Below, piece after piece: positions 6,726 through 61,367 of a stretch of DNA of 64,000 nt. The notes under the pieces are model-generated. The model saw nothing but the letters and a program-made list of their open reading frames with translations. It did no database searches and had not been told where the DNA came from. This DNA is from Dehalococcoidia bacterium (lineage in GTDB: Bacteria > Chloroflexota > Dehalococcoidia > Lucifugimonadales > GCA-002694895). Both the position numbers and the translations under genes were made by a program. The stretch spans positions 18,501 through 82,500 of the forward strand of contig JAPYRX010000008.1 in assembly GCA_029936815.1 (NCBI GenBank), given 5' to 3'. The stretch's first letter is position 1, and the number at the start of each line of letters is the position of its first letter.

Positions 6726-8030
6726 ATGGTTAAAAGAATTATGGTTGATATGTCAGCTACTGTAATTCATCATGGGCATATACGATTGTTAAAAAAAGCT
6801 TCTGAATACGGAAGAGTAATTGTCGGATTAACATCTGATGATGAAATCATTAACAATAAAGGATTCCAATCAGAATTGGAATATGAATATCGTAAAGAAA
6901 TACTTGAATCTATTAAGTATGTAGATGAAGTTATTTCTGTCCCTTGGCTAATAGATGAGAATGTTATGGAACAATACAATATTGATTTCTTAGTGCATGG
7001 GACTGATAATTTTAATCTTATTTCTAAAGATAAGCTCAAAATTTTTCCACGAACTGAAGGTATAAGTAGTTCTATAATGCGTAAGAGTTCACTTCGAGCT
7101 ATCACTCAGATAAATAATAATAACAAACTAATGCTTACTCCGGGACCTGCAGTAGTTTTACATGAGAATTTGCAGTATTTAAAGCCTCTATTCGGAAGAG
7201 GAGATGACGAATATACAAAAATGTCAGAGGATGTTATAGACTGGATTAAACAAATAAGTGGGCAAGATGAGGTGGTGGCAATGCAAGGTTCAGCGACTTT
7301 AGGATTAGAACTAGCCGCACACTCTTTCGTTTCGGGCAAAATTTTATTAGTTTCCACTGGTTATTATAGTGATAGATTGAAAAAACTTTTGCCAAAGGAT
7401 TGTTCGGCAACTATTTGTGAATACAAGGATATTGAAAAAATAAAAGAAAATTTTGATTGGGTTATGTGTGCTTATACTGAAACCTCCGTAGCATTTAAAA
7501 TAGATTTACAAAGTGTTAGGAATAAGGCCGATGAATGCGGTGCGAAATTATATGTAGATGCTACAGGATCAATTGGATTAGAAGATAGTCACCAATTAGC
7601 TGATGTAATGGCATTTAGTTCTTGTAAGGGATTATTTGGCTTAACTGGGGCAAGTTTTGTTGCGTACAAATCTAATTTGAATCCTAATAATCTAGATACA
7701 TTTTATTTTAATCTAAACACTCAAAAAAACAAAATGACTACTGGTCCTTATCATGCTATTGCCTCCCTTTATGGAGTTATTAAAATTCATGATATCCTCA
7801 AGCAACGTGTAATTAATAGCAAGAACGCTATTTTAGAAAAATATAAAGGTATTGTGCAGAATAAAAATCAACCGCTACTTTGTACGTATTTAGATGGGGA
7901 AGTTGTTCCAAATGATAATAATATTATTTTATATTCCCCTCGTTCAAAATTAAGCGGCTCAGTTATTTGCCATTTTGGCGAAATTCATCATGATGTTGTT
8001 AATATTGACCAAAGAATTGAAGTAAAATGA
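6726..8030 (+). CDS. bifunctional cytidylyltransferase / 2-aminoethylphosphonate-transaminase-like fusion
   Basis: The 434-aa protein has two enzyme domains. Residues 1-125 form a small nucleotidyltransferase: HHGH (15-18) is the HxGH motif and RTEGISSS (109-116) matches the CTP-binding RTxGIST signature. The surrounding sequence resembles the cytidylyltransferase domains found with phosphoenolpyruvate mutase. Residues 134-434 are a fold-type I class V aminotransferase resembling 2-aminoethylphosphonate:pyruvate transaminase: LTPGP (137-141), QGSAT, VDAT with Asp278 for the pyridine nitrogen, and Lys301 in SSCKG as the likely PLP lysine. Together they could make and CMP-activate aminoethylphosphonate. 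No PEP mutase or decarboxylase gene is in the window, so the substrate is inference. The C-terminal domain is shorter than usual for the family. Confidence 0.75.
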   Translation: MVKRIMVDMSATVIHHGHIRLLKKASEYGRVIVGLTSDDEIINNKGFQSELEYEYRKEILESIKYVDEVISVPWLIDENVMEQYNIDFLVHGTDNFNLISKDKLKIFPRTEGISSSIMRKSSLRAITQINNNNKLMLTPGPAVVLHENLQYLKPLFGRGDDEYTKMSEDVIDWIKQISGQDEVVAMQGSATLGLELAAHSFVSGKILLVSTGYYSDRLKKLLPKDCSATICEYKDIEKIKENFDWVMCAYTETSVAFKIDLQSVRNKADECGAKLYVDATGSIGLEDSHQLADVMAFSSCKGLFGLTGASFVAYKSNLNPNNLDTFYFNLNTQKNKMTTGPYHAIASLYGVIKIHDILKQRVINSKNAILEKYKGIVQNKNQPLLCTYLDGEVVPNDNNIILYSPRSKLSGSVICHFGEIHHDVVNIDQRIEVK

Positions 8031-8081: not shown

Positions 8082-8154
8082 ATAAGCAATATGTATAAAA
8101 ATTGGCAGAGATTTTTTAATTATATTTACCAACTTAATTTATTAGAGGTCGAAA

Positions 8155-8850
8155 ATGTTAGATACAGGGGATACATTAGAAAAACTTGATTTAATTGATA
8201 TTAATGGGCAATCATTTGATATTGCAAATTACAAAGGAAAAAAACTTGCAATTTATTTTTGGGCTTCTTGGTGAAATTGTAGAACTCAATTGCCTGGATG
8301 GCAATCATTAGCACAAAAAGCAGAAGGAAAAAACATTCAATTGATAAATGTATCTCTTGATTTTCAAGGCCCTGAAAAAGTCATTCCATATTTAGACGAA
8401 TACGGTGTGAAAATTAAAACATACATTGATATAGATAATTCTTCTGGTTTGTTATTTGGTTTCAAAGTTGTTCCAAATTTACTTATCTTTGATGAAGATT
8501 TAATATTAAAATTCAAATGTATAGCCAATATTAATATTCTTAAACATGAGCATAAGCTTTTAGTTGAAAATTGGTTAGATACCGGGAACTTAGAATCGTT
8601 AAATAATATTAATTCCAAACCAGCAAGTATACCTGCTAAAGAATCTGTAAATATTTTGAGAGAAGGAAACCAAATTCTTGAAACCGGTCAAGGTGATGCA
8701 AAACAATTATTGAAAAATATGGTTTCAGATGATCCTGAAAATTTTATATTTAGAAAACAATATTGGGCTATTAATAATCCAGAAAAATTTTATTCGGGCA
8801 AAATCGACACTGCTTGGCAAAGAAAAAAATTAGAGAATAATGAAGATTAA
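8155..8850 (+). CDS. thioredoxin/TlpA-like protein with in-frame TGA (probable selenoprotein)
   Basis: A 231-codon frame starts at ATG 8155 behind a GAGGT ribosome-binding site and is interrupted only by TGA at 8272-8274. The flanking translation, FWASW-TGA-NCRTQLPGW, places the TGA exactly where the N-terminal redox cysteine of the TlpA/thioredoxin-fold motif belongs, so codon 40 probably encodes selenocysteine and Cys42 the partner. The motif would be UxC, one residue shorter than the usual CxxC. The fold continues to a cis-Pro region (VVPNL), and a C-terminal helical segment follows from about residue 150. A hairpin fitting a bacterial SECIS lies at 8289-8305, and selA is at 59979-61367. 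The alternative is a sequence error or a pseudogene; translation from an internal TTG would lose the active site. Confidence 0.72.
8289..8305 (+). promoter_or_regulatory. candidate bacterial SECIS hairpin
   Basis: ATTGCC (8289-8294) pairs perfectly with GGCAAT (8300-8305) around the 5-nt loop TGGAT. The stem base is 14 nt past the TGA, and the loop has a G at its second position, 21 nt after the TGA. This fits the published bacterial SECIS pattern of a small apical loop with an early G about 16-37 nt downstream. Folding energy was not computed. Confidence 0.55.
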
Positions 8851-52000: not shown

Positions 52001-52799
52001 TTTAAGATTAAGAATATTATCAATTGTTTGTATTCTCTCTCCAATTTTATTTTTAACTTTGTATAGCGATATATTTGCTTTCTTAATAATATTTTCAATG
52101 TCTTGTTTGATTGTTTACGAATTGATACCTAATCAAAATAAAAATCAAAAAATAATATACGGATTAATAGCAGGGATTATATCAATGTTGCCATTCATAA
52201 TAAATTCATACTACGATTCTGTATCAAAAATTCAAAATAATACTTTTTATATTGTTTCAATATTAATTACATTATTATTTTTCTTATTACATATACCAAG
52301 AAAAACTCATTTAACCTCAATTTTCACAAACAATCTAACCTCCATTTTATTTGGCTCTATAGTTTCAATATACATTGCCTTGATACTAATCATCAATAAA
52401 AATATATTTTTATTGTTATTGTTGATTACCACAATTAGTGATTCTAGTTCTTTTGTTATAGGGAAGATGTTTGGCAAAAATCAACTAGCGAAAAGTATTA
52501 GCCCGGGCAAAACAATCGAAGGAGCAATAGGTGGTATAATTTTAACGATAATTATCGGATCATTTGTTTCGTCAATGTTAGTCAAAACAACAATATTAAC
52601 GACTATAACATATAATCTTACGCTAGTTTTAAGTGCTCAAATTGGAGATCTGTTATTTTCAAAAATTAAACGAAATAGAAATATAAAAGATTTTGGAAAA
52701 CTGTTTCCTGGTCATGGTGGCCTAATTGATAGAGTTGATTCAAGTTTAGTTACGTTTATGTTTGGGTATTTTATTTTTTTTGAATGGATAAAAGTATGA
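51987..52799 (+). CDS. cdsA: phosphatidate cytidylyltransferase (CDP-diacylglycerol synthase)
   Basis: 270-aa polytopic membrane protein with several hydrophobic helices. The signature is SISPGKTIEGAIGGII, with DSSSFVIGKMFGK before it and FPGHGGLIDRVDSSL after. It makes CDP-diacylglycerol for phospholipids. It overlaps uppS and dxr. Confidence 0.92.
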   Translation: MVLSNLRLRILSIVCILSPILFLTLYSDIFAFLIIFSMSCLIVYELIPNQNKNQKIIYGLIAGIISMLPFIINSYYDSVSKIQNNTFYIVSILITLLFFLLHIPRKTHLTSIFTNNLTSILFGSIVSIYIALILIINKNIFLLLLLITTISDSSSFVIGKMFGKNQLAKSISPGKTIEGAIGGIILTIIIGSFVSSMLVKTTILTTITYNLTLVLSAQIGDLLFSKIKRNRNIKDFGKLFPGHGGLIDRVDSSLVTFMFGYFIFFEWIKV

Positions 52800-53908
52800 A
52801 GAATATATCTATACTTGGTTCTACTGGCTCAATAGGAACGCAAACATTAGAAATATGCAAAGAAACTAACGAGTATAATATTTTAGGATTGACATGCAAT
52901 AAGAACACAAAATTGTTAAACAAGCAAATCAACTTCTTTGATGCTTCGTATTTTCATTCAAATAAAGCAATGGAATCAAAAGCAAAAAATATTTCACCAA
53001 AAGATATTGCTATAGATAAAAATATGAATATGTTAGTGGTTGCCACGGAAGGCCTTTCTTCATTAGAGCCAACAATAAATGCTTTAAACAATTCTAAAAT
53101 AGTAGGTGTTGCAAACAAAGAAACGCTTTTATGTGGATATGAATTCATTCTTAATTCCATAAATAAAAATAAAGGTAAATTAATACCTTTAGATAGCGAA
53201 CCTGCAAGTTTGAAAAATTTACTTGCCATTAATAATAAAAAAATTAAAAAATTAATAATCACAGCTTCTGGAGGTCCTTTTAGAAATAAAAATATAAATG
53301 AGTTGTCACAAATATCTCCAAAAGAAGCAATAAATCACCCAACATGGAAAATGGGGGAAAAAATATCGGTCGACTCTGCAACTTTGATGAATAAAGCATT
53401 CGAAGTATTAGAATGCAGTCTTTTATTTAATTACCCCACAGAAAAAATAGATGTTATAATCAATCCGAAAAGTGATATTCATGCATTAATTGAATATGAA
53501 GACAATTCAATCATTGCTTCTCATTATCCTCCAGACATGAAAATTCCAATATCAGAATTTCTATCAGGAAATATTTCTTCAAAAGCACAGCACATACGTT
53601 TATCACAAAAAGATTTAAAAAAACCTGATTTTGAAAAATTCGATCCTCAAAAATATCCTGCGTACGAAATTGGTTTATTCTATGGTAATAAAAGAGGTAG
53701 TTGGATTATTGCATTATGTGCCTCAGATCAAGCAGCAGTAGATTTATTTCTGCAAAAAAAAATAAAATTTACTGATATACCTAAACTTATAGAATATATT
53801 TTGCAAAAGCATATAGAATCAGAAATATTAACAATAAATGATATATATAAGTTATATAATTCTACAATTAACCAAACTCATAAAGTAGCTGAAGCTAAAT
53901 GGAAATAA
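52784..53908 (+). CDS. dxr: 1-deoxy-D-xylulose 5-phosphate reductoisomerase
   Basis: 374 aa. The NADPH loop is LGSTGSIGTQTL, the metal site DSEPASLKNL (family DSE.nA…), and ASGGPFRN and HPTWKMGEKISVDSATLMNK are conserved substrate segments. It makes MEP, the first dedicated step of non-mevalonate isoprenoid synthesis. ispG, two genes later, belongs to the same pathway. Confidence 0.95.
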   Translation: MDKSMKNISILGSTGSIGTQTLEICKETNEYNILGLTCNKNTKLLNKQINFFDASYFHSNKAMESKAKNISPKDIAIDKNMNMLVVATEGLSSLEPTINALNNSKIVGVANKETLLCGYEFILNSINKNKGKLIPLDSEPASLKNLLAINNKKIKKLIITASGGPFRNKNINELSQISPKEAINHPTWKMGEKISVDSATLMNKAFEVLECSLLFNYPTEKIDVIINPKSDIHALIEYEDNSIIASHYPPDMKIPISEFLSGNISSKAQHIRLSQKDLKKPDFEKFDPQKYPAYEIGLFYGNKRGSWIIALCASDQAAVDLFLQKKIKFTDIPKLIEYILQKHIESEILTINDIYKLYNSTINQTHKVAEAKWK

Positions 53909-58922: not shown

Positions 58923-59996
58923 ATGTCAACAGATTCTCCTTATCAATTCCAAGAAAGATCTCATATAGAATTAAGAGCTGACACTTATTCATTACCATCA
59001 CCTGAAATGAGAAAAGCAATGTACAATGCTGAAGTAGGAAACGATGGTTTTGGAGAAGATCCAACTGTAAATAAACTTGAAGAACAAAGCGCAGAGCTTT
59101 TTCAAAAAGAATCTGCTATCTTTGTATCAAGTGGTATTATGGGAAATTTTTTGTCTATACTAGCTCACTGTAACAGAGGAGATCAAATTATTCTTGGCGA
59201 TCAATCACATATTTATACTAATGAATTAGGTGGATATGCATCATTAGGTGGAGTTTTTCCTTGTGTTTTAAAAAACAAATCAGATGGGACGATGAATTTA
59301 AATTCTATTTTAGAAGAATTAGATCCATATGAAGGATCAAATGAAGATGTGCACTTAGCTCAAGCAAAACTTATTGCAGTGGAAAACACACACAACAGTT
59401 GTGGAGGAAAAGCGATAGGTATGAATTATTTTGAAAAATTAAATAATATCGCATCAAAAAAACAAGTCCCAATACATTTAGATGGGGCAAGAATATTCAA
59501 TGCATGCATTGCATTAGAAAGTAATCCTGCTGAAATTACTAGGAATGTTGATTCGGTTCAATTTTGCTTATCTAAGGGATTAGGTGCTCCTGTAGGATCA
59601 TTGGTACTCGGATCAAAGGAATTTATAGAAAGAGTTCGAAAATGGCGTAAAACCATTGGGGGAACAACTAGGCAATCCGGAATATTAGCTGCAGCAGGTT
59701 TGATTGCTCTTGAAAATTATGAAGAAAGTATAAAAAGAGATCATGATCTTTCAATATATTTAGAACAAAAATTATCTTTAATTGAAAATATAAAAGTAGA
59801 AAGCGTCCAAACAAATTTAGTTTTTTTCGAACTAAATGTAAATAATCCTCTAGAAATTTCAACAAAACTAAAAGAAAAAGGAATCAATGGAGGAAGCAGT
59901 AGTAAGCGTTGGAGATTTGTACCACATTACGGTTTGACTAAGAAAGATATTGATTATGTTAGCATGTCCCTCGACAAACTAATTAATAACTCCTAA
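58923..59996 (+). CDS. ltaE: low-specificity L-threonine aldolase, second copy
   Basis: 357 aa, tandem paralog of the preceding gene (2 bp after its stop). Fold-type I PLP enzyme with DQSHIYTNELGG, HLDGARIFNACIAL, and PLP lysine in FCLSKGLGAPVGS. It cleaves L-threonine (and allo forms) to glycine and acetaldehyde. An extra N-terminal ~20 residues differ from copy 1. It is complete and overlaps the convergent selA by 18 bp. Confidence 0.9.
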   Translation: MSTDSPYQFQERSHIELRADTYSLPSPEMRKAMYNAEVGNDGFGEDPTVNKLEEQSAELFQKESAIFVSSGIMGNFLSILAHCNRGDQIILGDQSHIYTNELGGYASLGGVFPCVLKNKSDGTMNLNSILEELDPYEGSNEDVHLAQAKLIAVENTHNSCGGKAIGMNYFEKLNNIASKKQVPIHLDGARIFNACIALESNPAEITRNVDSVQFCLSKGLGAPVGSLVLGSKEFIERVRKWRKTIGGTTRQSGILAAAGLIALENYEESIKRDHDLSIYLEQKLSLIENIKVESVQTNLVFFELNVNNPLEISTKLKEKGINGGSSSKRWRFVPHYGLTKKDIDYVSMSLDKLINNS

Positions 59997-61367
59997 TTTT
60001 TTCATTTCTTGTTTTATAATTTTAATAACTAATTCTTCTTGATCATTAAGAATTGTAATTGGATCTATAAATAATTTGTTGTTTTTAATTCTAGATAACA
60101 TTGGCGTAGGATATGATTTGAAATTTAAATTTAATTGCCCTGCAGTTATATTTAACATATCGCAATTAATAATAAGAGAATAACTCTTTATACTCTGTTC
60201 AGGAATACTGCCTCCTCCTATCATAGTCATCGATTTTTCTACGCTGAAAATATCATTATGATTTAATTTGTTTTTCCAATCATTAACTAAATCTAATATA
60301 TATATATTAGATTTAGAAAGGATATTCCATAATGGGATATCGTGATATTGATCATTCAAATAAAGTTGTAATGTAGCATGTAATCCAGACAATAAAACTT
60401 TGTCTAATCTTAAAGCTCTAGTTAGTGGATGTTTTTCTATGATTTCAACATATTCATTTTTCCCAGCAATAATTCCTGCCTGAGGCCCTCCAATCAATTT
60501 ATCTCCTGAGAAAAAAACCAAATCTACTCCATCCCTAATAGCATCTTGCACTGTGGGTTCATACTCAAGTCCATATTCTTTTGTGTCAATCAAACACCCA
60601 CTTCCCAAATCGTAAAAAACAGGGACAGATTTTTTCTTTGCCATGTCAACGATTTCTTTTATATTTGGTTTGTATGTAAATCCTTCTATTTTAAAATTGC
60701 TTTGATGAACTAGTAAAATACAACCAGTATTTTCAGATATTTTAGATTCGTAATCTTCTACATAAGTTTTATTCGTAGTCCCAACATCGATCAAAATCGC
60801 ATTGCTTTCAATTAAAACATCTGGGATTCTAAACCCACCACCAATTTCAACAGATTCAGACCTAGACACTAACACTTCTTTATTATTACAAATAGCTCTC
60901 AATGCCAAGAAAACCGCGGCTGCATTATTATTAATAACTAATGCGTTTTCAGCTTTAGTCAGTCTATTTATAATTTTCTTGAATTTTTTTAACCTGCCAC
61001 CTCGTTTGTTTTCATCTAAATCATATTCCAAATTAGAATAATTAGAGCCAATATTGCTCATTGCTTTAATTGCTTGCTTAGACAATGGAGCTCTTCCAAA
61101 ATTGGTTTGTAATATAACTCCTGAAACATTTATGATTTGTTTTGGGTGATCATCTGTTAAATCGTTTAAATTAGTCTGCAAGTTTTCAAATATCATTTCC
61201 ATTGTTATATTAAGGGCTGAATTCTTTGCATCTCTGTATTGATCAAGTAAAATTCTCAGTTCATTAATAACTATTTTCCTTGAAAATAATTTAGTAAACT
61301 CTTCAAATCTTTTTTGTTCAGATATCTTCTGTATACTTGGAATGTTTTTCAAATAATCGTTTTTCAT
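59979..61367 (-). CDS. selA: L-seryl-tRNA(Sec) selenium transferase
   Basis: A 462-aa PLP enzyme converting Ser-tRNA(Sec) to Sec-tRNA(Sec) with selenophosphate. The N-terminal helical tRNA-binding domain is present (about residues 1-75), followed by INVSGVILQTNFGRAPLS, RGGRLKK, the VSRSESVEIGGGFRIPDV segment, and the PLP lysine in FFSGDKLIGGPQAGI. Its full length indicates a true SelA. selB, selD and tRNA-Sec are not seen in this window. A likely client is the TGA-containing thioredoxin-like gene at 8155-8850. Confidence 0.95.
   Translation of the reverse strand: MKNDYLKNIPSIQKISEQKRFEEFTKLFSRKIVINELRILLDQYRDAKNSALNITMEMIFENLQTNLNDLTDDHPKQIINVSGVILQTNFGRAPLSKQAIKAMSNIGSNYSNLEYDLDENKRGGRLKKFKKIINRLTKAENALVINNNAAAVFLALRAICNNKEVLVSRSESVEIGGGFRIPDVLIESNAILIDVGTTNKTYVEDYESKISENTGCILLVHQSNFKIEGFTYKPNIKEIVDMAKKKSVPVFYDLGSGCLIDTKEYGLEYEPTVQDAIRDGVDLVFFSGDKLIGGPQAGIIAGKNEYVEIIEKHPLTRALRLDKVLLSGLHATLQLYLNDQYHDIPLWNILSKSNIYILDLVNDWKNKLNHNDIFSVEKSMTMIGGGSIPEQSIKSYSLIINCDMLNITAGQLNLNFKSYPTPMLSRIKNNKLFIDPITILNDQEELVIKIIKQEMKKLGVIN

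Follow-up and report, generated by a model that had tools for sequence, protein, structure and literature searches.

A predicted Sec codon and its reading frame

A TGA codon lies at the active-site position of a thioredoxin-like gene from a Dehalococcoidia bacterium, which raises the question of whether it ends the gene or is read as selenocysteine (Sec). An earlier note on the analysed stretch of DNA (the window; 64,000 nucleotides of contig JAPYRX010000008.1) had proposed a probable new selenoprotein here. We therefore examined the reading frame, its homologs, the RNA downstream of the TGA and the Sec machinery of the genome. The plus-strand sequence 8155-8850 starts with ATG at 8155, ends with a TAA whose last base is 8850, and holds a single in-frame TGA at 8272-8274, so the intact 231-codon frame described in that note, interrupted only by this TGA, was confirmed from the sequence, as was its good Shine-Dalgarno, AGAGG at 8144-8148. 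Translation gives the peptide FWASW-U-N-C-RTQLPGWQ around the site. The features of the gene are as follows.

8155..8850, plus strand: predicted selenoprotein gene for 231 residues if the TGA is read through, with a TlpA/ResA-like redoxin domain and then a TPR-like tail
8144..8148, plus strand: Shine-Dalgarno-like AGAGG, six bases 5' of the ATG
8272..8274, plus strand: TGA, predicted selenocysteine 40, with TGA in 45/45 order-level alignment loci and in 26 phylum loci, and Cys in homologs
8278..8280, plus strand: TGT, Cys42, predicted resolving cysteine of U-x-C, from homolog spacing

Translation table 11 lists only the ORF 8290-8850, which starts at a TTG and misses the redox centre; as the note had held, no useful start codon serves the downstream part unless that centre is given up. 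Databases contain forms of such proteins with 184-186 residues, matching this TTG-start call. We are nearly certain of the following reading: a single gene spans 8155-8850, its in-frame TGA (8272-8274) is predicted to encode Sec with the aid of the hairpin at 8289-8305, and the product would likely be a cytosolic thiol-disulfide oxidoreductase of TlpA/ResA type that has Sec-x-Cys at its active site.

Conservation of the TGA across the order and the phylum

We searched 147 genomes of the order, counting the organism's own genome. In 40 of them there is a short homolog whose codon at this position is TGA; one (G080) has a second stop, TAA, further on in the gene, and in another (G044) the gene is divided between two contigs. 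Five genomes of the order carry a long homolog with TGA, and one of these (G096) has the short form too. In the alignment, the codon is TGA in 45/45 order-level loci, a set without a degenerate copy (L070), the second half of a contig-split gene (L071) and two ordinary CPPC proteins (L078 and L079). The pattern selecting these first 45 loci demanded LP.WQ, and no fetched, unbroken TGA locus was dropped thereby. The degenerate copy (L070, G042:C74) contains several stops, and selA is still present in that genome.

From the phylum we drew 400 genomes, 55 of which had a match at 1e-25, and took loci from the best 30 of these 55. Besides the window, TGA was present within the motif in 26 of the 29 phylum loci from these best 30 matching genomes. 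The loci left out were the window itself (L101), a locus that starts after the site (L127) and two without TGA (L128 and L129), and four more TGA matches (one each in G460 and G274, and a pair in G444, of which one has an additional TAG) stayed outside the count. In total, 71 Sec loci were examined (45 from the order and 26 further ones from the phylum). The closest named record, from an uncultured Chloroflexota MAG, is a contig with 90% identity across the whole protein, and the genome locus corresponding to it (L030) has the same TGA. Since the same TGA recurs in many separate genomes, a sequencing miscall, which the note had named as a refutation, was rejected.

Cysteine in place of Sec

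Homologs with another codon at the site have Cys there in nearly every case: Cys occupies the Sec position in 46/48 aligned homologs besides the query, and also in P0019. The three-residue U/C-x-C spacing is kept in 49/49 aligned homologs with residues at these positions, P0019 having Ser as the second. Among the matches listed (for one search, the best 120 of 511 homologs), C-x-C was present in 108 of 129 homologs besides the query; the 21 outside the Cys-x-Cys pattern, including six Trp entries and truncated ones, were skipped. The short homolog P0019 reads CTS here; its first Cys is retained and its second gone, which suggests a one-cysteine variant.

Within the order, the only Cys version found is that of G034, where a Cys codon stands in a CGC motif (WGSWCGCRNQLPAWQ) and Leu is encoded by CTC where 71/71 Sec loci use CTG or TTG. 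In this genome, which is 97% complete, no selA was found at E 1e-60, the best selB match scored 188.5 bits against a cut-off of 242, and the best tRNA-Sec match scored 44.7 against a gathering score of 47. In the comparison genome G053, which has the Sec form, selB and tRNA-Sec are well above the cut-offs. Neither G031 nor G060, both without selA, has a short Sec form or a selB above the cut-off, and G060 has one tRNA-Sec match slightly above the gathering score (50.3 versus 47). In the single available case, G034, the Sec/Cys exchange tracks the Sec machinery. The note had proposed to look for homologs with Cys at this position; they were found in G034 and among the 108 Cys homologs.

Sec machinery of the genome

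The own genome (1.46 Mb in 35 contigs, 89.66% complete) contains selA, selB, selD and tRNA-Sec, all above curated cut-offs, and ARAGORN reports a tRNA-SeC with anticodon tca. The selA gene lies in the window.

59979..61367, minus strand: selA, selenocysteine synthase (TIGR00474, 495.8 bits against a cut-off of 267.9; hit 60012-61352)

The presence of selA in the window had been stated before and holds; selB and tRNA-Sec (TCA), whose absence from the genome would have spoken against Sec, are both there, together with selD. The selD gene (L017:1501-2427, G000:C11:107327-108253) has one in-frame TGA near its start, in the context NSGG-U-GSKF, so SelD of this genome is probably a selenoprotein too.

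Across the order, selA is present in 128/147 genomes. It was detected in 36/40 Sec-form genomes versus 92/107 others, and the association between Sec form and selA across the 147 genomes is not significant (p 0.59) because selA is nearly everywhere; we therefore dropped co-occurrence with selA as statistical support. The four of 40 Sec-form genomes without detected selA are 79-88% complete.

Termination or a standard residue at the TGA

Two readings do without Sec. The TGA may be a true stop, leaving either a decayed gene or a real protein of 186 residues from the TTG at 8290. The sole table 11 call, the database forms of 184-186 residues and the truly degenerate relative in G042 agree with this. 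Termination would leave unexplained, however, why the protein half preceding the TGA is conserved across distant genomes, why the neighbouring Trp36, Trp39 and Cys42 are retained in the alignment, and why TGA, and never another stop, is retained in the 71 examined loci; we regard it as extremely improbable. The codon could also be read as Trp or another standard residue, through an altered code or leaky read-through, and six database entries do have Trp at the site. We take these entries (185-231 residues) to come from short contigs on which TGA was translated with code 4. The non-TGA homologs have Cys (the 46/48 aligned ones and P0019). Moreover, TGA terminates 8 of 32 picked long ORFs of the window, so there is no general reassignment, and the Sec system of the genome is complete. 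A standard residue at this codon is accordingly very hard to credit. Decoding as Sec appears about as firm as sequence allows.

A hairpin downstream of the TGA

The 6-bp hairpin with loop TGGAT that the earlier note placed at the distance expected of a bacterial SECIS (bSECIS) is present at 8289-8305 (ATTGCC-TGGAT-GGCAAT), 20 nt from the UGA.

8289..8305, plus strand: predicted bSECIS hairpin, stem 8290-8294/8300-8304, outer pair 8289-8305
8295-8298, plus strand: loop-closing pair around GG 8296-8297, with an unpaired T at 8299, from covariation

The available part of PMC13188914 gives, in a figure legend, bSECIS limits of a 4-16 bp stem, a 3-9 nt loop, a G in the first two loop bases, 16-37 nt from the UGA and an MFE of at most -7.5. 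The window hairpin lies within all of them (6 bp, TGGAT, 20 nt, -8.4 kcal/mol), and the bSECIS prediction suggested in the note was thereby borne out. The single-sequence fold of 8272-8318 (MFE -8.4 kcal/mol, z -1.19, with 23/200 shuffles folding equally well) is unremarkable against shuffles and is weak evidence. We also scanned the TGAs of the window on both strands, with at least 30 open codons before and 40 after, using our own coding of the published limits. Two of 20 such TGA codons satisfy the limits, 8272-8274 and 52954 on the minus strand. The latter has a frame open on both sides and is antisense to the ORF 52784-53908, and for this reason its hairpin is probably chance. The TGA and hairpin of the selenoprotein gene are more than chance because both are kept in relatives.

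The relatives gave a stronger test. The third bases of codons 47 (Pro) and 48 (Val/Gly, once Ile) form the loop-closing pair, which is Watson-Crick in 38/45 order-level loci versus 13.6 expected from shuffling, and in 25/26 later-found phylum loci versus 10.2 expected. In the 45 genes it is the most extreme of 872 third-position pairs, with z 7.9 against 4.6 for the runner-up. Because both A-T and T-A occur among the 45 order-level loci and T-T never does, this pair does not easily follow from base composition. For the outer Leu/Gln pair, which is C-G or T-A, composition alone could be enough. The codon of Leu46 is CTG or TTG in 45/45 and 26/26 loci; among the remaining Leu codons of the first 45 genes the share of these two is 40%. 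For the whole structure, 91.8% of cells are paired versus 78.3% after shuffling, and the covariation score is 0.322 versus 0.114, with 0/500 shuffles as high in either measure. The hairpin pairs changed on both sides (3 versus 2.8 shuffled) and the further pair types (8 versus 7.4) are unexceptional. Of the seven pairs, four are invariant, and the outermost, 8289-8305, is broken in 18/42. Covariation being a strong test, these data argue that the hairpin is an RNA element and more than a by-product of conserved amino acids.

On these data the loop would consist of just two bases, GU or GG; the covarying pair closes it, and a U below that pair stays unpaired. In this the predicted hairpin would resemble the SelB-bound SECIS of Moorella thermoacetica. 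The loop is GG in the window and more commonly GU among the loci, and the bSECIS model in the available part of PMC13188914 permits both.

The RNA element and the flank of the active site

We compared the residues encoded by the hairpin between Sec and Cys forms. The motif LP[VG]W[QR] is present in 70/71 Sec loci versus 23/108 Cys homologs among the matches listed, a difference that shared ancestry may inflate, as the Cys homologs are mostly long forms from other lineages. The LP.WQ in the pattern by which the first 45 Sec loci were selected calls for caution as well. In the Cys homologs residues 46, 47, 48 and 50 vary and Trp49 alone is fixed. The RNA therefore seems to hold the active-site flank LP[VG]W[QR] fixed. 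In two phylum Sec forms (L107 and L126), Arg encoded by CGG replaces Gln50, which keeps the hairpin base and alters the amino acid.

Fold and genomic setting

The protein matches PF00578 AhpC-TSA (41 bits) and PF08534 Redoxin (34.5 bits), both above gathering scores, and its NCBIfam matches are of the ResA/TlpA type; the PDB chains found by profile search are ResA, StoA, TlpA and TPR. An AlphaFold2 model (mean pLDDT 82.2) shows the thioredoxin-like strand/helix order up to about residue 143, with residue 40 immediately preceding helix 41-55, and helices between 161 and 228; it is weak in the tail, with block means of 33-75 from residue 151. The invariance of Trp204 in 27 aligned sequences and the well-kept region around it suggest that the tail is functional. 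By eye, no signal peptide is seen in the window protein, and the long Cys homologs printed begin with one.

No conserved operon partner was found by ORF clustering among the window, L059 and 20 fetched loci, and no neighbour family occurs in more than 4 of the 22 clustered regions. One four-region 'family' was discarded, being antisense ORFs of the selenoprotein gene itself. The gene before the selenoprotein gene (6726-8030, plus strand) looks like a fusion of a CTP_transf_like cytidylyltransferase and a PhnW-type aminotransferase, which may point to phosphonate metabolism.

Relation to known families

The earlier note did not know a UxC motif in this family. Such selenoproteins are already listed in NCBIfam (NF041054) and in the available parts of PMC13188914 and PMC2398784. 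NF041054, WAxxUGC_long (ResA-like WAxxUGC motif-containing), shares with the window protein a homologous redoxin domain, U-x-C and the same bSECIS position. Its members are long forms (about 350-420 residues) that carry an additional N-terminal region absent from the window protein; a signal peptide is visible by eye in Cys members, and the middle residue is mostly Gly. The window protein begins 39 residues before the Sec, matches only profile positions 86-191 of 354, and scores 90.4 bits, below the cut-off of 300. Seven other short forms scanned, including P0019 and the G034 Cys form, score 109-163 bits; among the long Sec forms, four belonging to the order reach 294-318 bits, with three above the cut-off, and two from other parts of the phylum reach 313 and 572 bits. 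In a midpoint-rooted tree, the branch that separates long from short forms measures 1.66 and has support 100/100. A warning from the program is that, within the short side, long branches such as that of the window may be misplaced. The tree omits L033 and L072, which are cut by contig ends, and uses 18 of the listed long Cys homologs.

The available part of PMC13188914 lists a 'UGC-containing TlpA disulfide reductase family protein', with the example MDE0950781.1 (cd02966, motif UGC), and that of PMC2398784, the GOS paper, a 'Prx-like (UGC-containing)' selenoprotein family. As described there, both have a TlpA/AhpC-TSA-type domain with Sec-x-Cys, as in the window protein; compared by description only, their motif is UGC, whereas the window has UNC and the 71 loci U[AGVNSRM]C. 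The thioredoxin-like selenoprotein Sec.2 of PMC13188914, again from its available part, likewise has UxC and belongs to a different Pfam family, PF13192, to which the window protein had no match in a Pfam scan. ResA, TlpA and StoA have the redoxin fold and active-site position in common with the window protein; they carry CxxC where it and its homologs have U/C-x-C, and it has an extra TPR-like tail and no visible signal peptide. ResA, TlpA and StoA are membrane-anchored or exported.

From its place in the tree and the published UxC lists, the window protein would be a member of a separate short clade within a known kind of UxC redoxin selenoprotein. Of the 'probable new selenoprotein', the selenoprotein itself thus stands, given the kept TGA, the machinery and the bSECIS, and UxC as a new kind does not, as such families were already catalogued. 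A literature search returned nothing on WAxxUGC or on selenoproteins of SAR202, and by this search and NCBIfam the short clade is uncatalogued.

A proposed disulfide reductase

The selenoprotein could instead act as a peroxidase, peroxiredoxin-like and with a peroxidatic Sec. AhpC-TSA and Redoxin are its best Pfam matches, one source names the long homologs 'peroxiredoxin', and the GOS paper, in its available part, calls its UGC family 'Prx-like' (PMC2398784). WASWUxC, however, occupies the position of WCxxC in ResA, TlpA and thioredoxins, and its best relatives in NCBIfam and among solved structures belong to the ResA/TlpA type. We consider a peroxidase unlikely, though by no means negligible, and favour with moderate confidence a disulfide reductase, whose likely role would be that of a cytosolic thiol-disulfide reductase. 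In the mechanism that we propose for it, SelB bound to the hairpin would deliver Sec-tRNA(Sec) at the UGA. Sec40 would then attack a disulfide (or peroxide) and Cys42 would resolve the Sec40 intermediate, while the TPR-like tail (about 161-228) may bind a partner or shield the active site, and thioredoxin or another cytosolic reductant would regenerate the selenol.

More tentatively, and with rather less than even confidence, we suggest that the short U-x-C redoxins with a TPR-like tail form a Chloroflexota family of cytosolic selenoproteins, distinct and uncatalogued, in which the SECIS, and not the enzyme, froze LP[VG]WQ, an RNA imprint that would loosen upon change from Sec to Cys. The covarying pair around G[U/G] over an unpaired U may then narrow the bSECIS consensus down to a loop of two bases that SelB reads.

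These results correct a gene that gene callers truncate at its active site, and they add a Sec enzyme that is common within a single Chloroflexota order. The family has 71 examined Sec loci, many Cys homologs and a single Cys version, in whose genome the Sec machinery was not found, and so lends itself as a compact natural experiment on the constraint that an RNA recoding signal places on the overlapping protein sequence.
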